NCBI RefSeq assembly: GCF_036711975.1 | Contig: NC_091970.1 | Span: forward strand, 4,905,501-4,969,500 | Length of the DNA stretch: 64,000 bases | Source of the DNA: Onthophagus taurus | Taxonomy: Eukaryota > Arthropoda > Insecta > Coleoptera > Scarabaeidae | Reading direction: 5' to 3' | In this document: positions 13,001 through 61,157 of the stretch, in pieces | Layout: each line of letters starts with the position of its first letter | How positions within the stretch are numbered: position 1 is the first letter of the stretch | Notes under the pieces: model-generated | Database searches by the model: none | Told to the model about the DNA's origin: nothing | The model's input: only the letters and a program-made list of their open reading frames with translations | Made by a program: the position numbers and the translations under genes

Positions 13001-15080
13001 CTAAATTCCAAATGATACAAAACTTACATTATTGTATTATCAATAGTAACGAAAACATCGTCTAATTGATGTGGAAGGTAACCAATTTTCATTTGAGTAC
13101 GTACGCCCTCATTAATAAAAGCCTAAAAATTAAAGAAGATATAAAATAGAAAATTAATTAAAAAGTTTTTTACCCTTTTTAAATTTTCTTCGAAATTCGG
13201 TGTGATATTATCCAAGAGTTTCCTTAAATTATCCGACATCTCTGAAAATAAAACGATTTTGTTAACAACAGCCGTATTTTTAAAGTTGTAAAATGTAAAA
13301 CGATAAGAAATACTCGAGTTATCTTTTAGAGATATACTAATTGCAGCTGTTAAATTTAAAAATTCGCGCCAAAGCGCTTGCGTATCCAGCTGTAATCTCA
13401 TACCACGCGTATTTTATTTACACATGTCATTCTTTGATCAAAACATGAAAATAAATAAAAAAAAATTATTCACTTACTGACATTAAACGAGTTATTTCCT
13501 TTATTTAATTTATTTGTTTATTTAAAATATTTTCTTTAATAATTAAAAAGAATTTTACATTCTGCTTAGTTGGCGTCGACTACGTTTACCGTTTCGAAGT
13601 CGTGGCCTCCTTAAAGTTTACTTTCTACTAAAAGTTGTTATTACAAAAAGGTTCCATCTGTCGGATTAAATCTCATTTATATTTATTTAAAAATTATTAA
13701 TTTTAAACATACCGTTTTAGCAATGAAAATTGAATTTACATTAAATTTACCGTTCGATAATGTTTGAATATATACTAATTCATAATTAGGTGCACATATT
13801 TTGAATAAGTCGTTGATTAATCCGAAGGTGTATACATAAAAGCTTTATATTAAATTATAATCCGGATATAGATTAATATCGAAATAACACTTTGCCGGAA
13901 CAACTAATTAACGCGTACATTCGCTTCACAAAGAGGATAATTTAATGACAATTTATTAAAAGATTCTCAAAAATAAATCATGATTATGACAGTAAAATAT
14001 AAATTAACGTTTGACAATAAAGTACTGATAAGTCTGAATAATAAGTGAGGAGAATTTGAAATAATCACCGTCATCATCGGGAGAAAGATTTTTTTGATTT
14101 ATTTGAAATTGCATAATCTAACATAACCTCAACGATAAACGTCAAAAAATATACAAGGTTTAAATACGTTTAATAACGTAAAATTGTATTATTTTAGGTA
14201 GGAATTTTAGTAACATTTCATCTGCGAGATGCTTAAATTGTGTTGAAATCTAATTTAAGAAATGATCAGATTTTTTAAATAATAGGTCCAAAATACAAAA
14301 AAGGAATAAAGATGCCTCGGCAAATAAAGATAACATACAAATGCAGAGATTATCTATGTATTTCGTAAGAATTTAAGCTTCTACTCACTTCTACTTCAGC
14401 AGCATAACTACTGAAAATTTACTATATTGGCTATATTGAAAATTTGATTACTTACTTTATCTGTCATTTCTTAATGTTTGAGGTTATCTTTATGTCAAAT
14501 TAAATAATATGAATCAAGGTCCATTGAGTATTGGTTACAAGGTTATCCAACTCGAACAAATTAACGTTGACGGGGTGAGGTGGGAAACATGACGTCATAT
14601 GAGGAAAAATATAACAATATAATATCACAATATAAATTTTTAATATAAATATAATAATAATATTTATGGTAATAATTATTTCAAAATTAAACAAGTGTTA
14701 TTAAACTCAAGAAATAAAGAGTTTGTGTTGGTTTAGGTATAGGTGTAATTTATATTTCATAAATGAAAACGGAAATGACAATTCTTCCAATGACGTCACA
14801 ACAAGGCCTTTGCGGAGGGGATACGTTCATAACAACAGTGTTCATAGAGAGTTGGATAACTTTATACAGTATGTTTACTCAACGGACCTTGGATATGAAT
14901 GAAATAAAATAGTAATAGAAAGTTATGCAACTCAAAATACAACTGCTTAATATTTGACGTTTAAACAATATACAAAAATTATCAACATTAAATTAAATAT
15001 GAAATACCTTGACAAGATGTTAATGAAAACACCCCTAAAACCACAAAAATTACTAAATTACTTTTTTTAACATTCGACAT
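10082..15080 (-). CDS. Secreted protein with two tandem JHBP/takeout-like domains, 449 aa
   Basis: Ten exons join in phase: 15008-15080, 13174-13241, 13028-13122, 12537-12722, 12367-12481, 11345-11405, 11158-11290, 10820-11102, 10605-10765 and 10082-10256. Residues 1-23 are a signal peptide (LVIFVVLGVFSLTSC core). Residues about 24-225 look like a juvenile-hormone-binding/takeout domain: the LGLSLGQLKIEGEYEV and KILPISHVGKIAVVLEN pattern is typical. Residues about 235-449 form a second copy of the same general architecture (LRANRLLDSIL, VRLRDFKFIYPYYK, ending in helix LGSLSWLRDRLRSWIIGN). Known members bind hydrophobic ligands in haemolymph or cuticle and are usually about 240 aa with one domain; the group-7 mite allergen fold is an alternative family name. 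Ligand unknown. Introns 1 and 5 are long and carry repeats. Confidence 0.85.
11700..11960. repeat. Tandem repeat related to 8961-9270, opposite orientation
   Basis: Irregular array of AGCGTGAAGGAATGTT and TTAGGTTAGTTTTGTT blocks, the reverse complement of the sub-repeats at 8961-9270. It lies in intron 5 (11406-12366) of the JHBP-like gene. Confidence 0.7.
11985..12165. repeat. Hairpin repeat family A, reverse orientation
   Basis: Contains TTCTAATTCTAGGTCTAGTG, TTCTAGTTTTAGTTTAAC, AAGTTGGCAATATTGAAC, GGTTAAACGTCAATTTAATA and GAAACGACATTTC, the reverse complement of the family-A body. Inside intron 5 of the JHBP-like gene. Confidence 0.65.
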
Positions 15081-46515: not shown

Positions 46516-46787
46516 CAAGGTCTATAGAACATAAGGTTACCCAATACCGATTCTCCTCCTCTGAGAGGCAAGGTGGGTCAGTGACGTAGCTGGTTCTATG
46601 AACAACACAACGCCAACAAGGACAACACGATGCGAGGTTTAAATATTTTATATAGACTGTACCACAGTATAGGTACGTATCTATCATTTATTCTGACTGT
46701 ATCGAACCAGTGACGTCAATTTGCGGGGTAATAATCGATACTACAGAGGCATAGGGAATGAGGTAACCTTATGTTCTATAAACCTTG
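46516..46787. mobile_element. MITE, 272 bp, with perfect 9-bp target duplication
   Basis: Terminal inverted repeats of about 26 bp: left CAAGGTCTATAGAACATAAG, right the complement of CAAGGTTTATAGAACATAAG (one mismatch). Both ends are flanked by identical ACTTATACC (46507-46515 and 46788-46796). A 9-bp duplication fits Mutator-like or related superfamilies rather than mariner. No transposase; the 60-codon ORF inside is chance. Confidence 0.9.
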
Positions 46788-46992: not shown

Positions 46993-47283
46993 TTAGGTTA
47001 TAACCGCTTGGTCTCCATCAACACAACTTAAACGCCTTTTCACAACGTGAACTCGCCGATTTGAGAGGCAAATTGCATAACAATGATCTTCGTAAAATAT
47101 CGAAAGTTTCTTGAAACCTTGATCGGCTGGAAACGCTTTGGGATCTAACGTTGAGGTTAAACTTAGAATACCCATTATAATATTGGCCGATTTCTCATCG
47201 TTCTCAAGTTGCCCCGATGATGATAACACCGCACCTTCTTCGTTAAGAAGTAAAGCGCCCAATTGATCTGGAATATTGTCCAT
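46993..47283 (-). CDS. LAMTOR4 (Ragulator subunit p10), 96 aa
   Basis: Single-exon ORF. IPDQLGALLLNEEGAVLSSS and GQLENDEKSANIIMGI match the roadblock-like LAMTOR4 sequence, followed by FKKLSIFYEDHCYAICLSNR and the VHVVKRR strand. LAMTOR4 pairs with LAMTOR5 in the pentameric Ragulator, which anchors Rag GTPases on lysosomes for mTORC1 activation. Length agrees with orthologues (about 99 aa). It lies between the MITE and the Jun promoter, divergent from Jun. Confidence 0.92.
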   Translation of the reverse strand: MDNIPDQLGALLLNEEGAVLSSSGQLENDEKSANIIMGILSLTSTLDPKAFPADQGFKKLSIFYEDHCYAICLSNRRVHVVKRRLSCVDGDQAVIT

Positions 47284-47800
47284 TACCCCTCTAATTTAAT
47301 ATTTTTCACAAAAAAATCATAACCTCACTTTCTTAGTGAATTCTAAATCAATAGATGTCGCTTTAATTAAAGCGAAATCGAAATTTTAATCGTTTTAATT
47401 AATTTATTTAGAATCAATTTGTTTTTTAATTGATTTTATTCGATTAAATTAATCAAATAAACTAATTGTTATTACTTTATTATTATAAATAAATAAAACA
47501 ATATAATTTGAAATTTCATTCATAGATGTCGTTATAAAAATTAAATAAGTCAAATTTGAAGGTTATGTTAAAAATATTTCATTCTATAAATAAATCGTTT
47601 ATTTATTAAGTATTTATTTTATTTTGAGAAAAAGTTTCGAATAAAATCAAAATAAATTACAATATTTATTAAATTAAATGACGTCATTTGCCCCACCCAC
47701 TTAGAAATTGTCAAAACGATGAGTCATAACCTATTAACTGCGTATAAAGCGATTATCGCATTCTTTTAAAGAAACTATTCAATAAATAAACTTAAATCGG
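47284..47800. other. Divergent promoter region, LAMTOR4 and Jun
   Basis: Contains CATAACCTCAC (47318) near LAMTOR4 and AATAGATGTCGC/CATAGATGTCG words at about 47350 and 47520. A TGAGTCATAAC sequence near 47719 is an AP-1 consensus (TGAGTCA) about 80 bp before the Jun TATA box, compatible with autoregulation. Confidence 0.5.
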
Positions 47801-47808
47801 TATAAATA
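47801..47808 (+). promoter_or_regulatory. TATA box of the Jun transcript
   Basis: TATAAATA, placing a start near 47830, about 25 bp before the small upstream ORF. A TGAGTCA AP-1 site lies some 80 bp upstream (about 47719). Confidence 0.65.
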
Positions 47809-47855
47809 CAACATTTTTAGCGACTTCGACCAATATAACTCGCAGTGAGTAAATA

Positions 47856-48035
47856 ATGCATCTATTTTTACCCCAAACCCCTCCCATTAATTCTCTTTGT
47901 TTCGTTTTAGGTTATTTTATGGAAATAACTAATTGGTGTTGCTATTATTTCCTTTTGGCATTGGTGATTTTACCCGTTAATCTATTTTTCGATCTTTGGA
48001 AGTGGTTGGGTTGGGAATTATTTGTAAATAATTAA
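47856..48035 (+). CDS. Small upstream ORF with membrane segment, 59 aa, on the Jun transcript
   Basis: ATG at 47856, TAA at 48033-48035, 11 nt before the Jun ATG and in a different frame. The peptide starts MHLFLPQTPPINSLC and has a strongly hydrophobic stretch (CCYYFLLALVILPVNLFF) followed by DLWKWLGWELFVNN. If a possible 65-nt leader intron is removed (donor GCA|GTGAGT at 47845, acceptor GTTTTAG ending 47910), a shorter 38-aa form starting at the in-frame ATG 47919 remains open to the same stop. It may be a translated membrane micropeptide, a regulator of Jun translation by reinitiation, or both. I know no named homologue. Confidence 0.5.
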   Translation: MHLFLPQTPPINSLCFVLGYFMEITNWCCYYFLLALVILPVNLFFDLWKWLGWELFVNN

Positions 48036-48046
48036 GCGGATCCAAA

Positions 48047-48791
48047 ATGAGCGGGTTATTCAACGACAAAAACATCAACAATGTGAAGCAAAGCTTAAAA
48101 TTAGATCTGAATCAAGCCAAAAAGAACAGTGGGATACCCCTGCTACTTTCCCCAGATTTAAATATGTTGAAAGTAAACACCCCAGAGCTTGAAAAAATGA
48201 TTTTAGCTGGAAACGGGATGAATTCAGCAACTCCAACTCCATCTGGAGCTGGGCCTCTTTTATTCTCTAAACCTGTAACTGAGGAACAAGAATCGTTTGC
48301 AACGGGATTTGTGACTGCTTTAAATAATTTACATAATAATAACTCAAATAGTAATCCAGGTAAATTTTTAATTTAAGACTTTATTTTTCTATTTTTAATT
48401 AGATGATTTAATTTTAGCTTCGGAAAATTCCTCGAGCACAATTTTCACCGATCTCGAACAACCTAACCTACAATTTGTCCCCGCGATTAAAGAGGAACCC
48501 CAAATTGTACCGTCTATAAGTACGACCCCACCAATGTCCCCCGTTGACATGGAATACCAAGAACGGATGAAATTAGAACGGAAACGTCAAAGAAATCGGT
48601 TAGCCGCTTCGAAATGCCGATCAAGAAAACTAGAGAGAATATCAAAGCTAGAGGATCGCGTGAAGATCTTAAAAAATGAAAACAATGAGTTAGCTTTGAT
48701 TTTGAACCAGCATAAGGAAGAAGTGGGGTTATTAAAGTTAGAAGTTATGAATCATCATAGTGCCGGGTGTAATATCATTAATAATTCATAA
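48047..48791 (+). CDS. Jra: Jun-related bZIP transcription factor (AP-1), 228 aa
   Basis: Two exons, 48047-48359 and 48418-48791. The N-terminal JNK-docking and transactivation segment is intact ([20 protein letters not shown] then [16 protein letters not shown]), with Ser/Thr-Pro sites matching those phosphorylated by [24 protein letters not shown] run leads into the basic region ([17 protein letters not shown]) and a leucine zipper ([19 protein letters not shown]). It dimerises with Fos/kayak to bind TGAGTCA and acts in JNK signalling, wound repair and dorsal closure. Shorter than fly Jra (289 aa). The small ORF ending 11 nt upstream implies leaky scanning or reinitiation. Confidence 0.95.
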
Positions 48792-49579
48792 TATTATGAT
48801 GAGGTTGTTAATTAATTAATTAAGGAGTTTAAATTAATAAGTAAGTAAATGATTTTTAATAATTCGTTAAATGAAATAAAACTGAAACTAGAAATTTTGA
48901 GGTTAACACGACTTAACCTCAATGTTTCTAGTTTGTTTTATTTTTTACTCCGATCATAGAATACGAATGTATCGTTAATAATAATTCAAATTAATTTAAG
49001 TTAATTAAGATAAATTTATTATTAAATATATTTTTTATAAAAAAAGGTAATAAAAATTTTTTAACCTCACTTTTTTGACATATCAATTTAAAAGATTTCG
49101 AAATTCACTTACCTCATATTAAAAAGATTCCTCCATGATGTCTTCATTTAACATGGACCACTATTTATCACTTATCTAGATTTATCTTAATGTTACAAGT
49201 TATAACCCAAAAATATACACTTAAATAAACATAACCTACAAAAACTTGACTTGCTTTGGTTACTACAATCAAATTCTCAATGTTACCAACTTACTTTTTT
49301 TTAACCAACTTCTTTATTTTGTTTTTACTTTGTTTAATTTCTAATAACTGTAAAACTAATTTAATTAATTGAGGGGTATTCTTAATTAATATAAATTTAT
49401 AATTAAATATTCTTTACAAAAAAACATTTAAAAAAATTTTTTTAACCTAACTTTTTTGACACTTCAACTTAACCTCACTTTTTTGTCATAAAATTTTTTT
49501 AATAAATAAAGTATTGCACAAAATAAAATAAAGACGATAAATATCCTTCAAACAAAAACATTTAAATAAAATAATACAC
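48792..49579. other. Intergenic region, Jun to giant Lys/Ser-rich gene
   Basis: Tail-to-tail spacer with a family-B hairpin (48874-48953) and two diverged copies of its AT tail (about 48985-49080 and 49340-49460, each ending TTTTTTAACCT). No gene seen. Confidence 0.5.
48874..48953. repeat. Hairpin repeat family B, downstream of Jun
   Basis: GAAATAAAACTGAAACTAGA and TTGAGGTTAA on the left pair with TTAACCTCAA and TTTCTAGTTTGTTTTATTT on the right across a short loop. Confidence 0.8.
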
Positions 49580-52500
49580 TTATTTCATGCACTGTTTAGA
49601 AAAATACCCACATAAATCTTTCGGAGATAAGGTTGACAATAACCGGATTAATTCAACGATTTCCTTCGAATCATCGCTGGTGCTAAGTTTGTCGTTAAAT
49701 TGCTCTTTAATTAATCGATTTTGATTCTTTTTACCTTTATCACTCGAGCTAAGCGAACACCAACTATCGTAATTCCTACAAAAAACCTCAACTTTATCAA
49801 CATCGATGGTATAATCGGTTTTTTTATAATTAACCATATCATCGTTAACATCGGATACTCCCGAAGAACACGGCTCGGCGATACACGAACAATCCTCACT
49901 ACAACTTATCGCAACTTGCTTTAAATATTTCGAGCAAAAAACATTTCGTTCTAATTGAACTTGATTTTTAAATCGTTTTAAATAAGTTTTCGAAACGTTT
50001 AATTTGATTTGATTATCTTGAGACTGTTTGTTTTTAACCCCAAAAGTAATTTCATCGCTTTGATTATTCCCTAAAATATCTTGTAACCCATTTGGAAGAC
50101 TTCGAACTAATTCTAAAACGATATCTTCCAACTCGGTGCTTGAAACTTGGGATAAATATTTTTTAACCATTCGTTTCCGAGTGTTTTCGCCCCGTTTATT
50201 TCTTTTTTCCTTGAACAACATTGAAATTAAAGTTTCGAAGATTTCATCTTTTCGCGGAATTTTTTTGTTGGGTTTCCGATAAATATTTAGGAGAGTTGGG
50301 GGTAATTCTAACCTCCGTACGTCGTATTCGTGAGCTTGTACAAATTCTTCGCTTGATATTCGACTACTTCCTTTTGAGCGTGCTTTATGCGGCTTAAGAA
50401 ATGAATTTCTTTTCGATGATCGTAGAGATGATTTTGGAGTTGATTTAGCTGACGAGTTTTTAATCATACTCGGATGTGGTGTTAAAAGAAGCCTTTTCAT
50501 ATCTTCCTCTTCGTAATCGCAAAAGCATTTAGATGAATCCGACTTTTGGCTATTACTTCCTTTCTTGGCTTTTTCACATTTTTCGACTTTTTTGGTTTTA
50601 ACCCGCGATTTCGACGTATTCTTAGTTGACAACTTACCTTCGCTTGAATGTTTCGATTTTGATTTCGATTTAGATTTTGAAGCCTTTTTTTTAGGGGGTT
50701 CTTCAGATTTTTTTTTACCCTTCGAGCAACAACCGGGTTCGGAAGGATCCGGGGTTCTAACCACAATCGATGAAAATGTTTCAACGTCATCGCAAATGCA
50801 ACCTTTTGGGTCAATTACTTTCGGGTCGAGTTCGTTATATAATTGTTCCTCTAATTTTCGTTGTTTTTTGCTCTTTTTAGGAGGTTTAAACTTCGATGAA
50901 GAACTGTTTTTTCGTTTCGCCCTCGAATTATCGTCACTTACCACCGAATTTTTTGATCTGTTCCTTTTTGTTTTGACATTTTGGGTTGGCACAACTGCGT
51001 TCGATTCTTCTCTAGAAACGTCATTTTCTTCTTTTAAATCTTCTTCAAAGGTTAGTTTTTTGTCTTGAGGAGGCTCCTCATATTGAGTTGAGTTCTTTTT
51101 TTTCTTACTTATCTTCTTTAAAATACTTCTTTGAGAAGATTTTGGGGTAACCTCGTTCGATTTCGATCTCTTTTTGATTAGACGAGGTCTTCGCTTAATT
51201 CCGGGGGTTTCCTTACCTTTACTTTGTTGTTCTAAAATATTACATGCACATTTTGTTGTTATGGGAAACTCATTTTTTTCTGGTTGGTTTATTTGGGGGT
51301 TTTGAGGAGAGCCTTTTTTAGCACAACATTTTTTTTTATTTTTTTTACCACTCTCAACAATAACAACACTGTCATCCTCCTTTGGACAATTACACAACCC
51401 AAATTCAAGGTCGTGATCGTCTTTACGCATCCTCCTTTTAAGAGCCATATATTTTTCGTTATAACTAGCTTGTAATCTCCTTATTCCTGGAGGTAATTTA
51501 TCCAAAACATCTTGTTTCTCCTTCTCTTTATTCCTTTTATGCTTTGATTTAACTTTCGATTTATCTTTTGATTTAGATCGCTCCCGTTTCGACTTAAACA
51601 ACCTCCGAAAAAAAGGAATTTTAGTTGAGCTTGTATCTTTCGAGCTTGTTTCACTTCCCCTTTCAGCACTTTTCCTACTCCTCCGCAAATTAATCGATTT
51701 TCTACGTTTTTTATCAACATATCCACTCATTTTTGAATTTGGCTCCTCTTTATAACCCTCGCTTACCACCGCTTCAACGGTACCTTTCCCACAATTAAGG
51801 ATTTTAGTCATCGATTTGTCTTTATGTCTACGTTTTCTCTTCCCAATTAATTTTTTTACAGCCTCTATTGAAGTTATGGAGCTATCGGTACAAACTGAAT
51901 GCTCCTCATTCCTTCTCATTTGATCAAATGTAACCTTAAAAGATAAAAAAATTAATTTATAACTCAAGTTTTATTTAATTATTTACTTTTTTGCAATAAT
52001 TTCTTCCTTCTTCCTTCGCATGGATACAACATGTATACGGCTTAATCAACGCTTGGTAATTATTCCCAAAGTCTCGTTGCTCCTTATCCATAACCTTAAC
52101 TGGTCTACTATGTTTAATTTGGTTATTATTTCCTTTTGACATCTTACAATAACATAACCCCTCTGTTTGACATTGGCCGTCACAATTTAAACTCGATGGC
52201 CCCGAACTTTCAATCGTTCTTGTGGTATCGGTTTCCACAGATAACGTCGGATTTGATCTATAAGTCACTGTAGTGATTGAATCTTTCGATTCGGTCTTAT
52301 CATCATCTTTCGTAACATTTAAATCATCCTGTGAATTTTCTTTCGAAGCATCTCTTAAGCTGTGATCTTTCGTAGTATGATCTTTTGAAGTTTTACGTTT
52401 ACTCCTCTTAGAATCATCCGATCCATTTAAACTACTTCTACTCGACTTTTTCTTCTTCTTCTTCAAATCCTCGATCATTGGAAAGTTTAATTCTCTCTTT

Positions 52501-55500
52501 TTCGAGAGACAAAGCACGTTCGATTTCATTAAAGGATCAATCATTGGTTGATGGAAACGTTTTACTTTTTGAAAGATGTCGTTGCACTCTTTAAAAACGT
52601 TGTTTAAGTTTGCTTTAAACGTTTTCGCCTTTTTCGCTTGGGGTGGGCAGAAAAAATCTTCTGATGATTTCGAGGCTGAGACGGCACCGTTTGGGTCATC
52701 TCTCCGCACGATGGTATCGCTTTTAATTAGGTATAAATCGTGAAAGTTGTTGTTTTCTTTGTCGCTACCATCACCGGTTTGAATGTTATCGACTGCAGCC
52801 GTGGCCGTGAAACATTCGATTGGTTCGGCGAAGAAAGATTTTGGAGGAAGAACATCTTTTGATTTCTAAAATTTAAAAAATATAAATTAATTTCTTCTAA
52901 AATAATACTAAATTGATTCTTAATTGATTAATTATCTGCTTATATTTGTTTAAATAAAATTATTAAGTGACGTTTTATAAACGTCAATTTGACACTTGAT
53001 TTGAAATTAAAAATATCCCGTTTTTGAGATATTTAATCTCGAGATATCATTAAATTAAAATAAAAATGAATAATTATTAATCATTATAAATTAATTTCTT
53101 CTAAAATAACTATTAATAATAATAAATTAACTATTAACAACAAATTTTATGTTAAAAATAACCGTTAGGTGTCGCTAATAAAGTGGCGTTTTATAGAACA
53201 AAAATGTGTCTGTTTTAGAGTAAAAAGTGTTAAATAATAACAAATATAAATATGGTAATAAATATGAAGAGAAAAGTAAACCAGGAGATATATAACAAAA
53301 TTAAATAGGAAAATTTCCTTTTATAACAAAGAAATATACATATTTGTTTAAACAAAACGTGTTAAAAAAGTGACGCTTCATAAATGTCAATTTGACACAT
53401 CATTTGAAATTAAAAATATCCCATTTTTGAGATTTTAATCTCGAGATATCATTAAATTAAAATATAAATGAATAATTATAAATTATAATAAATTAATTTC
53501 TCATAAAATAACTATTAATAACACTAAATTGATTCTTAATTAATATTTTAGGTTATATTTTCTGTTGACAACCAATTTTGTTAAAAAGAACCGCTAGATG
53601 TCGCTGATAGTGGCGTTTTATAGAACAAAAATGTTTCTTTGGTAGAATAAAATGTTAAATACTAACAAATATTAATATGGCAATATGAAATATGAAGAGA
53701 AAAGTAAATAAGAAGATATATAACAAAATTAAATAGGAAAATTTCCTTTTGTAACAAAGAAATTTAATATGTTTAAATAAAACATTTAATTTGACACTTA
53801 ATTTGAAATCAAAAATATCCCGTTTTTGAGATATTTAATCTCGAGATATCATTAAATTAGAATAAAAATGAATAATTACCTTTCGTTTCTTCATTTCGGA
53901 CACACCCTCGCTAAATTCCCGACTATTAGAAAACAACCCCAATTCCGAGTCTACCGCAATGGGCATCTTCCTATAGATGAACTCCAATCGACATTTTATT
54001 CCATTTGGTTTCGTTTCTTCGCCGACCAAATCTTCCTTAGCGATCAAGTTTGACGGATATTTGATAGATCCCTCATTGACGGAAAACGACGTATCGAAAA
54101 AGTCTAACTTATCAACAGAGTTAAAACTCCTCATAAAATAATTCACGTTGTAATCGGTATCTTTCGGATTGAAATAATTAATTTTCGAAATGTTCTCCGA
54201 AAAAGACGACGACGTTTTATTCCTTTTAAACAACTCCGATTTCTTTTTAATATCGTTCGCAATTTCTTGAGCGAGCAACCGCCGATTCACGCGGCTATTC
54301 TGCGATGGCGACGATAAAAACGACGAAGACGACGTAAAAGACGTCGGTGGATCAAAATTTATTAATTTAACTTCTTTTTTGATTATTTGAGCCAAATTTC
54401 CATCATCCGAAATCGTTGATGAGTAAGACGTTACTTTGATTTCGTTGTTAATTTGATTCGTTTTGGGGGTGTTATAAAACGGATTTCCCCATACTCCGCA
54501 TTGATAACCGAATGCATTATTTTTCGTACGATTTTTAATTAAATTAAATTTATTTAGAAAGCGTTTTGATGATAATTCAGGTTCTGTTGATGTTGATGTT
54601 GATGTTGAGGCTGAAGGTTTTTCCGAAGTTCTTGGAGTTTCAATACGTTCGATATTCGTTGATGATGAATCAAAATTATTTCTTTTAATTTTAATTAAAA
54701 GTCTTGATGATTCTGTACTTTTTGGAGACTCTGTTGATACTTCATTTTTTTGTGATTCCCCACTTTTCGGAAAATCTTCATCGTTTTTATCAAAATCATC
54801 TTGAAATCTTAACGATTTCTTTTCATTATTAATTTCTGATTTATTTTGATTTGATTTGGAAGTGGTTGTCTCATTTTGTGTGAAATTAGATTCGATTTCG
54901 TTCTCTTCGTCGGTTTGAGTCGATGATTTATTTAAGGTTATAACACTACTTGAACTAAATTTCTGTGATTTTGATGCTTCTAAAATTGTTTTAACAAGTT
55001 TCGATTTCATTTTATCATAAATTTTTAAACATTTTGAGTCTTTAACATCATCAGAAGCTGTTGAGTCCTCTTTAACTCCTCCTTCACCTTCAATTATTTT
55101 CATAACATCTCTTTTGGGCTCATTCTCACTTTGATTTCGATTAATTTTTGAAACAAACTTACTTGATTTCTTAATTTCGCTTTGAACTTTACACGTTTCC
55201 GGACATTTTTTTAGTTGAAATCGTTCCGTTTGAGTTTGTGATTTATTTAAAGTCACAACGTTTTTTAATCCCTTTTTATCATCCCTAAATTTATTTTTGT
55301 ATAATTTCTTCTTATTTATTTCATTTTCGGAATCATTTTTTTGCAAATTTTTTAAATCACTTAACAATTTATTGAACTTTTCCACCTCGATTTTAGCCGA
55401 TTTCCTAATTTTACTTTTAATAAATCTTATTTTCGATTTCTTTTCATCCGAATTCTCCTCAACGTTCAATGAACGACAACTTTTTGGACATTTCCTACTT

Positions 55501-58500
55501 TCTAGATGCCTCAAAATCTTTTCATTTATTGATTTATTCTTAAAATTAATTCTTGGAATCTTTGAACTCCCCGCTTTATTTTTCTCAACCTTAATCGATT
55601 TATTTTCTTGAAATTTTCGTTTCCGTACTGGTAATTTTGACTTCAATTTCTTCTCAATCACATTTTTTTCTTCGTATTTCACCACCTCTTTCTCCAAACA
55701 CTCCTTATTTGAGCAACTTATTTTGCATTCTTCATGGAAAATCGGTTGTAAAGGGGCCCGTTTAATTATTTTCGGCTTTGGCTTCATCCGATAATAAATT
55801 TTCTTTGTTTCCTTAATTTCCATAGGTTTATGGCTAGTTTTAAACGCAATTTTTGAAGGTTTTTTGATATTACAAAACGAAGATTTAATTTTTTTAACTC
55901 CCCCCGATAACGGTTTGATTTCCGGAAGCGATGTACTCCTTAATATTAACCCATCATCCAACGATGGCTTTAATTTCTCAATATGAAACTCTTTCGAGGT
56001 TTGAACACTCTTTTTTATTATTATTTTAGGTCTCTTCTTTTTCCCCTTAACTTCCGGGGGCTCAAACACTCCCATGCTCTTCAAAAAAGCTCTAAATTCA
56101 TCGGTTATTTCCAAAATCGGTTTCCCAACTCCTGATGAAGCATGCTCAAACGCATTTTTAAGTTTTGGTTTTACAGGAAAATCGACAACTTTAATTTCCT
56201 CCTCTTTTTTTTGCACCAAAACTTCCTCCACATCCTCAACCCCCTCATCAACATCCGCCTCAATAATCTCCTCAACTTCCCTCTCATCAACATCCGCAAC
56301 AGCCGCCTCAATAATCTCCTCAACTACCCTCTCATCAACACCCGCAACAACCGCCTCAATAATCTCCTCAACAACCCCCTCCACAATATCCTCAGCTTCC
56401 TTTTTAATTTCATCATCAGACACCAAAATATCGTATCGAATCCCATCATCAACCTTCTCTACATCTCGCTTAATTAACTCATCTTTCCCACGGAGTACTT
56501 CTCTAAGAAAATTTAACTGATTTGCATCATCCTCTTTTGTCTCCTCAACTTCACCAACATCTTCTTGAACCTAAAATCAAATAAATTAATTCTCAAATTT
56601 AATAAAAACATCTTAATTACCTCCTCCTCCTCATCGAAAGCACTCAAACTCGCTCCTGTGTCGTCCTCCTCGACTTTAACACCTTCCAAACATGGCTCAA
56701 TATCAGTAATCATAGGTTTTCGTATCATTCTCCATAAATACGTTCTTAAAAGCGTCATTAACATCTCATCGCTTATATGTTGCCTTAACCCGCTTACTAA
56801 ATAAACCGTTTTGGGGCGAATTATTTCCAATTCATCGAGATTACTTTTCGGGAGTCTTGGGGGTGCTCGAAATAAATAATCATCGGTTGAATCGGAGTCG
56901 CTTGTGATTTGAAGTCTTTCCGAAATTGTAACTGTGCTGCTCTTCAACGATGGGGAACCTTGATGAACCAAAACCAACGAATTACGACCCGGCAGGATTT
57001 GTTGGAGATTGTAGATGTGTTGGTTCGTATTTTTGGGTAAAGAAAGGGTGTGTCGGGTTGATGGGGTCCCTCCATAAGCTAATTGTAGGTTAGATTTTTC
57101 GATTTGTTCTCGTTGAGGGGTTAATTTTAGGAGAACGCTTGATGTTAATAAAAGATCTTCGGGGGATTTTCCGATTTCTTTGATTTTTGGGAAAGCCCGC
57201 GTTATTCTTGGTAAAGGTTTAGTTATAACTCTAAAAAAAATAATAAATTAGAATTAATCTAACGTCATTAATTTAGGTTACTTTGTTACTTACTTTGTTT
57301 TTCCAACTAAATCCCCCGAAATTAAAACTGGTTCAAAATTGTTTTTCTCAAAAGGATACGGTTTCTCCTCTTCGATAAGATCTAAAGGGTCCTCAACGTC
57401 TTGACGTATTTCGGGGGGTTTCCAAAAATGATACCATCTCCTTTTTGATTTAGCTTGTTTTTTATCACGGAAAATTTTCTTTTTCGGTGCTTCTTTGATT
57501 TTAATTTCTTTCTTCTTTTTAGGACGTTTACAACAATTAACCAAATTCAATTTGCTTTTTGATTTTGCTTTTTTCTTTCTCAAAAACATTTTTTTGTAAC
57601 GATCGGCTAATTGTCCCCATGATCGTTTCCCCTCCAATTCACCATCATTACCATTATTAAAGTCTTGTGTAGGTTCTTCAACGTGGTGTATTAAAGGGTA
57701 ATCTCCGGATAACGCGCCGAGTTCATCGAGAATCTCATCAACTATATCGGAAGGCAGATCACCAAAGATGTCACTATTTACTAACGATAACTCGTCTTCT
57801 TTAATTTCGCTTTTGTTTTGAGGTGAAGTTATTAAATTCTTTTTTAAAGTTAATATAAGGCTTTCATCGTTAATGCTTTTGACGGATTCTTTTTCGATTA
57901 ATTTAATATCGTCGGGTCCAATTGGGTGGAAAGTGCTGATCAATTCCCCTTTTAAGGTGCGATCATTAATTAACTCATCTTTTATACTTTTTGTAACCTC
58001 AATTTTAACCGGGGTTTTAACTTCATCTTTAAGTTTTTGTTCGGAACGTTTTAATTCCAAGAATTCTTGATCAACAATTGATGACGAACTTCTAAATTGA
58101 ATGTAGTTATCAACTTTGTAAATAGAGATGTCATTGTTAACTTTTTCTTGGATCAATTTGGGTTGAAACAACTCTTTTGGACTGTTTCGTTGGGCTTTTT
58201 TTGAAACCGGTTTTTTAATTCTTTTTGATTCATTATTTTTTTTCTTTTTAGCAATTTTCTTCTTTTTAATTTTCGAGCTGATTATTTTAACTTTTTCTTT
58301 TCCAGGTGAAACGTTCAACACACTTTGATGTTTGTTTACGTTCTCGGTAATAACGGGGTAAGTTATTAATCGATTGAAATAATTTTTTGGGGGCGACAAA
58401 AAGAAATTATTATCCCCACCCCCTAAATAGGTTGACTCAAAAGATTTTTTTTCATTTTTTAAAAAACGATCTTCATCTTTGTTGCTGAAACTCCACGTGT

Positions 58501-59210: not shown

Positions 59211-61157
59211 CTACACAACGTAATCCTTTAAGTTAATTCTTTTTTGATACGTACTCACTTTTCGTTCTCTCGCATACAAAATCCTTTCGTTATCATCGAA
59301 ATCACGATCATCTTGATCTAAGTCGTCCAAATTCGTTTGGACTCCAATATGAAACGTATTCCTTTTTGAGACTGCTAATAACTTCTTATTTCTTACGTTA
59401 TTTATCGTTTGAACACCCATCGATTGATTTTTCTCATTAATCGTATTCGTCGATTTATCAACGGAGATAAATAAAGAATTCCCCGCCATCGTTGAGATAT
59501 CGGCCAACTCATTTTTGGGGTAACAAGTTCCACGGTCTTTAGTAGACACGTTTAATATATTAAAAGTTTGATTTGTTGTTGGTTTAGGTTCTGTTATTTC
59601 AACTTTTTTTTTGAATAAATTTCCGAATTTAAATTCCTTTTTTTCTTCCGATTTAACTTTATTTATAATTTTTTTTGAATCTTTCCCTAAATTCGAATCT
59701 TTTTTATTTAAAGTTTTCATATGAATATTATGCAATAAAGGATGTAATAGAGTCACCGGGGTGCTTTTACAAACACTTTGATTCTCCAGCGGGCACAATT
59801 CCATTCTTTGCAGCTCTTCGGGTGATTCAACAACCGAATCTGACCCCAACGAGCTTTGATCATCATGCAAAAGCACCTCCAAATATTTCTCCATCTTCGA
59901 AGTAATCGCATCAATTTCAAAGTCAACCTTTTTGATGGAATCTTCCTCAACCTCCTCGTTAGTTTGATTTTTTAATTTTTTTTTCCCAATAATTATTTTG
60001 GGAACTCTTTTTTTCTTAACATCGTCTAAAACGGAATTTGTTTCGTTGTTAACTTTTATATCGGTCCCTATAAAAGTGGGATATCGTTGCTTATCGGATA
60101 ATTCTCGATTTCCCGATAATTTATTTAAGGATTTTTGGATATCTTCGGTTAAAATCGGGTTATCCGATGTTAAAAATTCGGCAACTTTAGATAAAGCTTC
60201 TTTTCGCTCTTCCGTTTCATCCACTTTTTTGGTTGCTTTCACTTTTAATTTGTAAATTGAAGGTTTTGTTTTTAAAGCATCATCATTTTTTGGTTTAATT
60301 AAGATCGAGGGAATTTTCGATTGAGTATCCCCCTGATTTTTATTCTTCCTAACAAACTCTAACCACTCGAAAAATTTACTTTGAATCTCCTCGTAAATAC
60401 AAGTATCGCTAGTACTCGTACAACAGCTTCTTTTTTCTGTACCCAGATTTATTCTAACCGATCTTTTCTTCCTTGTTTCATTAACTTCGTCTTCCTTTAA
60501 AGTATCATCGGTGCTTTCAAACATTTTACTTTGATTTGCGAATAAAATCGTTGTTGATTTTTGGGAGATATTCGAAGTGTTCGTTTCTTTGTTGCATCGA
60601 AAGTTATCGGAATATTGGGTGATTTTATCCGAGAAATTAAATTTATTCCCATCAGTTTGTGTTGTTTCATCTTTCATATCAGTAAATAATTTATCCTCAA
60701 CTCCACTTTGTAAACTCGTGGCGCTTAAATATTGTGTTCCTTTATCTCGATTAAAACTTTTTTTTTGATAATTTAAACTAATCGGGTAAGCATCCAATTT
60801 AATCGGCCTCGAAAGTTGAAAAAAACTCGTGCTTAAAAACGTCGTTGTACTCAAACACTCCTCAGGATTTTCTTTATTCTTATCGAAATACTTATTAAAT
60901 TCTTTTTCGAAAAATTTTGAGGTTATCTCTTTTAAAATCGGCGCAATATCGTCTTCTAATTTTTCTTTGTCAAACTTCTCCGAATTTAAATTTGCTTTAC
61001 TATTAAATTTCTTTTCCAATTCATTTTTCTTGCGAAAACATGCACAAAAATTTCTAAATTTAAATCTTCCGTTGGGACGTTCTGGTCGAAACGAAATGGG
61101 ATATTTTCTTCTTCTACTTTTGAAATTGGCGTGGGACGCTCGAACTGATGAGTACAT
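59211..61157 (-). CDS. Lys/Ser-rich protein with TQT-type motifs, 648 aa (or 5' part of the giant gene)
   Basis: Single open frame from ATG 61157 to TAG 59211. The basic N-terminus (SRRRKYPISFRPERPNGRFK, then NFCACFRKKNE) is followed by disordered, charged sequence with repeated short motifs of one style: KGTQYLS, ETTQTDG, KETNTSN, KSTNTIN, MGVQTIN, IGVQTNL. The same style occurs in the next gene on the strand (KSVQTS, KSQTQTE, KSSTQTD). A strong donor inside the frame (CGAAAA|GTGAGTAC, exon end 59259) could splice in phase 0 to 59001 (AAAG|GTAAAA), which continues into the 58863 exon; the two would then be one gene of about 3,364 aa. Function unknown. A short 9-codon ORF precedes the ATG. 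Confidence 0.65.
   Translation of the reverse strand: MYSSVRASHANFKSRRRKYPISFRPERPNGRFKFRNFCACFRKKNELEKKFNSKANLNSEKFDKEKLEDDIAPILKEITSKFFEKEFNKYFDKNKENPEECLSTTTFLSTSFFQLSRPIKLDAYPISLNYQKKSFNRDKGTQYLSATSLQSGVEDKLFTDMKDETTQTDGNKFNFSDKITQYSDNFRCNKETNTSNISQKSTTILFANQSKMFESTDDTLKEDEVNETRKKRSVRINLGTEKRSCCTSTSDTCIYEEIQSKFFEWLEFVRKNKNQGDTQSKIPSILIKPKNDDALKTKPSIYKLKVKATKKVDETEERKEALSKVAEFLTSDNPILTEDIQKSLNKLSGNRELSDKQRYPTFIGTDIKVNNETNSVLDDVKKKRVPKIIIGKKKLKNQTNEEVEEDSIKKVDFEIDAITSKMEKYLEVLLHDDQSSLGSDSVVESPEELQRMELCPLENQSVCKSTPVTLLHPLLHNIHMKTLNKKDSNLGKDSKKIINKVKSEEKKEFKFGNLFKKKVEITEPKPTTNQTFNILNVSTKDRGTCYPKNELADISTMAGNSLFISVDKSTNTINEKNQSMGVQTINNVRNKKLLAVSKRNTFHIGVQTNLDDLDQDDRDFDDNERILYARERKVSTYQKRINLKDYVV

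Follow-up and report, generated by a model that had tools for sequence, protein, structure and literature searches.

The small membrane-type open reading frame (ORF) before the Jun gene of Onthophagus taurus very probably encodes PIG-Y, a subunit of the GPI-anchor enzyme, judging by its resemblance to the human protein and to the corresponding Pfam family. PIG-Y is tiny and easily overlooked, and the enzyme to which it belongs initiates GPI-anchor synthesis. In the stretch of DNA analyzed here (64,000 nucleotides, referred to as the window), PIG-Y would form the upstream cistron and Jun, a stress-response factor, the downstream cistron of one spliced mRNA, with Jun reached by leaky scanning, an arrangement that we consider likely as a whole. 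The original prediction of a 59-codon ORF between the TATA box at 47801 and the Jun ATG was confirmed in position and frame. This ORF (47856 to 48035, forward strand) runs from an ATG at 47856 to a TAA stop at 48033-48035, and the Jun ATG at 48047 lies in a different frame, 11 nt after the stop (intercistronic gap, 48036 to 48046, forward strand). A scan of positions 47700 to 48060 identified ATGs at 47719, 47856, 47919, and 48047; no ATG thus separates the TATA box from the ORF. The ATG at 47919 opens a 38-codon version (47919 to 48035, forward strand), which is the preferred PIG-Y cistron.

PIG-Y (PF15159) was the sole Pfam family matched by the ORF, both in its 59-amino-acid (aa) form (E value, 8.1e-4; 20.6 bits) and in the 38-aa form that starts at the second methionine, 47919 (E value, 1.2e-4; 23.3 bits). 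Both scores are below the Pfam curated cut-off of 25 bits, which is a search threshold and not a biological property. Comparison with human PIG-Y, a query that itself matches PF15159 at 39.2 bits, yielded an ungapped alignment of the C-terminal 31 residues with 15 identical positions and a score of 91. The best of 5000 shuffles scored 57 for the 59-aa form and 55 for the 38-aa form. Likewise, when all 931 stop-to-stop segments of at least 30 aa in the window were compared with human PIG-Y, the second-ranked segment scored 41. The conserved C-terminal membrane segment and tail of PIG-Y are thus represented in this alignment, and the Trp-rich end described earlier corresponds to the conserved tail, FFxLWxWxGxxLFxxN. 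The single strong hydrophobic segment claimed for the peptide was also verified, with a Kyte-Doolittle value of 2.03 over 19 residues, and at 38 or 59 aa the product is, like PIG-Y, a small protein with a membrane-spanning segment. Human PIG-Y has two membrane segments; here, a possible first one peaks at 1.04 over 19 residues and is present only in the 59-aa form.

None of eight shuffles of the 38-aa form had a Pfam match, whereas reversing the peptide produced three unrelated matches with E values from 0.0099 to 0.15. Solved structures searched with the 38-aa and 59-aa forms returned no match. A 14-residue match in a 41-kb viral contig was dismissed as chance, as the matched frame differs from that of the 145-aa ORF surrounding it in this phage-like contig. 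A pattern search of genome contigs with Jun returned 52 matches, none of which was a relative.

The search was extended to the genome (291 Mb in 33 contigs), where five of six other subunits of the enzyme were found over the cut-off (PIG-A, PIG-P, PIG-C, PIG-H, and PIG-Q), the PIG-H match being partial (E value, 2.3e-4). PIG-Y is therefore expected in this genome as well. The sixth, DPM2, gave no match over the cut-off in the genome (best E value, 0.50). A protein-level search for PIG-Y produced one match, and a profile search produced two, the window ORF (E value, 0.34) and a 36-aa frame on another contig (C3:27524949-27525047; E value, 9.15; 15.4 bits). The latter scored 43 against the C-terminal part of human PIG-Y and was taken as a chance match. 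In searches that ignore introns and score the best candidates only, no PIG-Y candidate other than the window ORF was convincing anywhere in the 291 Mb, as far as similarity can tell, and the product of the window ORF would act in the GPI-GnT complex. A PIG-Y gene of the Drosophila type, located at Tpst, was rejected; the surroundings of two sulfotransferase matches (C2:10600500-10617400), presumed as a guess to represent Tpst, were examined for the best two segments per locus, none of which came close to the window ORF in score. Furthermore, no PIG-Y was found within 1.5 kb on each side of the sole Trm112p-type match (TRMT112 or PREY). As a separate observation, four partial matches to the first 63 to 67 positions of PIG-C (GPI2), each interrupted by a single TGA, form a row at C1:1438899-1440213, just upstream of the full-length PIG-C match at C1:1440406-1441188; they are perhaps tandem partial duplications.

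The Jun gene (228 aa; exons 48047-48359 and 48418-48791, forward strand) was recognized by Pfam matches and joined exons. Its first exon matched PF03957 (E value, 1.5e-22), the one such match found in the genome, and its second exon matched bZIP_1 (E value, 6.3e-16). On its upstream side, the Jun frame ends at an in-frame stop at 48029. Other Jun proteins carry a METTFY motif, and an additional N-terminal Jun exon was considered and rejected; no METTFY-like motif was found before 48047, and the two loose matches in the window are both located downstream. The first polyadenylation-type signal past the Jun stop is an AATAAA at 48875 to 48880 (forward strand). Three large ORFs of 779, 746, and 648 aa (49580-51919, 53835-56075, and 59211-61157, all reverse strand) follow downstream of Jun; they are Lys/Ser rich and have no Pfam match at an E value of 0.001.

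Upstream of both cistrons lie the probable TATA box, TATAAATA (47801 to 47808, forward strand), and a second TATA-like site, TATAAAG (47743-47749). A CRE-type site, TGACGTCA (47679 to 47686), and an AP-1-type site, TGAGTCA (47720 to 47726, forward strand), are located 115 to 122 nt and 75 to 81 nt upstream of the TATA box, respectively, and their function is presumed from the motifs. As Jun proteins bind CRE-type and AP-1-type sites, autoregulation of Jun through these sites, with PIG-Y carried along, is plausible. The case for it is weak, because both motifs exceed expectation across the whole window (4 copies of TGACGTCA versus 0.40 expected; 9 copies of TGASTCA versus 3.65 expected). The TGACGTCA copies form two pairs, one at 46711-46718 and 47679-47686 and the other at 14590-14597 and 14791-14798. 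A 96-aa ORF upstream of Jun (46993-47283, reverse strand) shows a weak, below-cut-off likeness to LAMTOR5 (E value, 0.0046), and the Jun promoter may therefore be common to a divergent gene.

In the favored model, a single mRNA from the TATA-type promoter just upstream would carry PIG-Y and then Jun. A 66-nt leader intron would probably be spliced out, removing AUG 47856. Scanning ribosomes would then meet the weak PIG-Y AUG at 47919, where some would initiate and produce the 38-aa PIG-Y, and those remaining would pass through AUG-free sequence and initiate at the strong Jun AUG at 48047. The PIG-Y AUG has a weak context (GGTTATTTT-AUG-G, with U at -3, T in the DNA), and that of the Jun AUG is strong (GGATCCAAA-AUG-A) and near the insect optimum. 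Between these two AUGs, none occurs in any frame. Synonymous recoding of the peptide with the codon usage of the window gave AUG-free sequences in 1045 of 20000 cases (mean, 1.77 AUGs), and the absence of AUGs is therefore suggestive, not strong. As AUG 47856 has an A at -3, this layout of a weak AUG, a strong AUG, and none between depends on splicing of the candidate intron. Reinitiation after 11 nt would be inefficient, and the earlier argument that the gap is too short for it agrees with general knowledge. Leaky scanning is therefore indicated, and the AUG contexts favor the same route.

The candidate leader intron (GTGAGT...TTTTAG, 47845 to 47910, forward strand) is predicted from splice-site scores. 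Counting both strands of the window, its donor ranks within the best 2.0% of 6056 GT sites, and its acceptor ranks within the best 0.19% of 5280 AG sites. With a threshold set by the candidate itself, it is the only GT-AG pair as good at 50 to 100 nt on either window strand, and 20 Markov sequences contained 0.3 equally good pairs per strand. From 47280 to Jun's own donor, position 47845 alone exceeds a donor score of 0.5, and Jun's own intron (58 nt) is similar in size. The length of the candidate intron is a multiple of 3, and the reading frame stays open from 47856 to 47910. Removal of the intron would delete AUG 47856 and leave the 38-aa form; most of the first 21 codons (47856-47918) falls within the candidate intron, and translation may thus begin at 47919 and yield 38 aa. 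We regard this spliced form as reasonably likely, and 38 aa is favored over 59 aa. Of the original prediction, the 59-codon open frame itself is present but may overstate the protein, and the proposal that it would be the first ORF of the Jun mRNA fits the favored model but missed the identity of the protein, the candidate intron, and thus the likely length of 38 aa.

Alternatively, the PIG-Y cistron could be read unspliced from 47856, giving a 59-aa protein whose N terminus adds a second but weaker hydrophobic segment and leaving Jun repressed or expressed from other transcripts. We consider this possible, though the less probable reading. AUG 47856, with its A at -3, would capture most ribosomes, the frame is open across 59 codons (the form also matched by Pfam), and in a Met-to-Met comparison of the first 21 residues with the human N terminus, 21 of 5000 shuffles were as good. 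Splicing also implies a very short first exon: with transcription beginning some 30 nt downstream of the TATA box at 47801, only about 14 nt would remain. This counts against the intron, although use of the TATA-like site at 47743 would avoid it. However, the first 21 residues are outside the Pfam match, are low in hydrophobicity (at most 1.04 over 19 residues), and are mostly spanned by a good candidate intron, and their free local alignment to the human N terminus lacked significance (matched by 749 of 5000 shuffles). Furthermore, the fly protein has 40 aa (PMC12259957), close to 38. Both forms could also be used, so that splicing acts as a switch: retention of the in-frame 66-nt intron would give 59-aa PIG-Y from a strong AUG and turn Jun off, and its removal would give 38-aa PIG-Y from a weak AUG together with Jun. 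We consider such a switch rather doubtful.

It is improbable, though somewhat less so than a splicing switch, that PIG-Y and Jun are made from separate mRNAs of one locus, through other start sites, early polyadenylation, or alternative splicing (for example, from 47845 to 48002). Within the PIG-Y frame, the acceptor-like site at 48002 outscores the acceptor of Jun's own intron (-1.55 versus -2.52), which would allow for a Jun mRNA that lacks PIG-Y, and ATTAAA variants occur inside Jun at 48486 and 48731. However, the two frames are just 11 nt apart, no further donor above 0.5 was found from 47280 to Jun's own donor, no AATAAA was found from the PIG-Y start to the Jun stop, and the AUG contexts appear to be arranged for leaky scanning. 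With the estimates slightly lowered because of the site at 48002, a shared mRNA is probable, and leaky scanning as the route to Jun is favored on balance. The original prediction had offered either a repressive upstream ORF (uORF) or a dicistronic micropeptide message, and at the sequence level the second is supported, with the micropeptide now named as a PIG-Y homologue. Like the repressive uORFs of regulatory genes, the ORF is short and lies a small distance ahead of the main AUG; unlike them, it encodes a peptide that resembles an enzyme subunit, and its AUG would be weak after splicing. A purely repressive uORF, the peptide having no role, is very unlikely: its location directly upstream of Jun would fit, but the PIG-Y similarity extends across 31 residues and no other convincing PIG-Y was found in the genome. 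Repression of Jun could coexist with a micropeptide role.

Codon usage is the one result that fits both a pure uORF and a chance open frame in AT-rich DNA. Among 8838 overlapping open 38-codon windows taken as noncoding, a set that may include unrecognized exons, 93% scored at least as high as the PIG-Y core, and 71% did so when synonymous choice alone was considered. As coding evidence, codon usage thus failed, being uninformative to negative. The ORF stands above chance by its PIG-Y score of 91, reached by 0 of 5000 shuffles. As the other 930 open segments of the window did not match that score either, a chance frame is hardly credible.

Human PIG-Y has 71 aa, and PIGY is the downstream cistron, with PYURF as its partner. 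The window ORF differs from it in length, in partner, and in cistron order, and human PIGY has no known link to Jun. The two are alike in the 15 of 31 identical C-terminal residues and, if the proposed mRNA is correct, in the presence of PIG-Y on a bicistronic message; PYURF-PIGY is named as a previously characterized human bicistronic transcript in one source (PMC13303939). In Drosophila, PIG-Y was thought to be missing until a 2025 CRISPR screen found that display of a GPI-anchored reporter at the cell surface depends on CG46311 and is rescued by the CG46311 cDNA (PMC12259957). CG46311 is a 40-aa small ORF (smORF) inside Tpst with 27.5% identity to human PIG-Y and was proposed there as the missing Drosophila PIG-Y (PMC12259957). 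A 2026 tick preprint also gives CG46311 as the fly PIG-Y (PMC13174539). The window ORF resembles CG46311 in being very short (38 versus 40 aa), in being a smORF in another protein's gene, and in being proposed as PIG-Y, a likeness of length and setting and not of alignment. In contrast, the host gene is Tpst in the fly and Jun here, and the function of CG46311 was tested, whereas the window ORF is known from its sequence. No report of PIG-Y together with Jun was found among the titles and abstract openings searched, and an annotation of the locus may already exist.

Transcript sharing is already known for PIG-Y, and Jun as the partner would be new; the window suggests a further animal, one that carries PIG-Y directly upstream of Jun. 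In humans, in Drosophila, and, if the proposal holds, in the window, the gene partner of PIG-Y differs each time, so that its host transcript may have changed repeatedly. If this is true, disrupting the Jun leader in this beetle would affect GPI-anchor synthesis as well, and the translation of Jun would be governed by the frequency with which ribosomes skip a housekeeping cistron.
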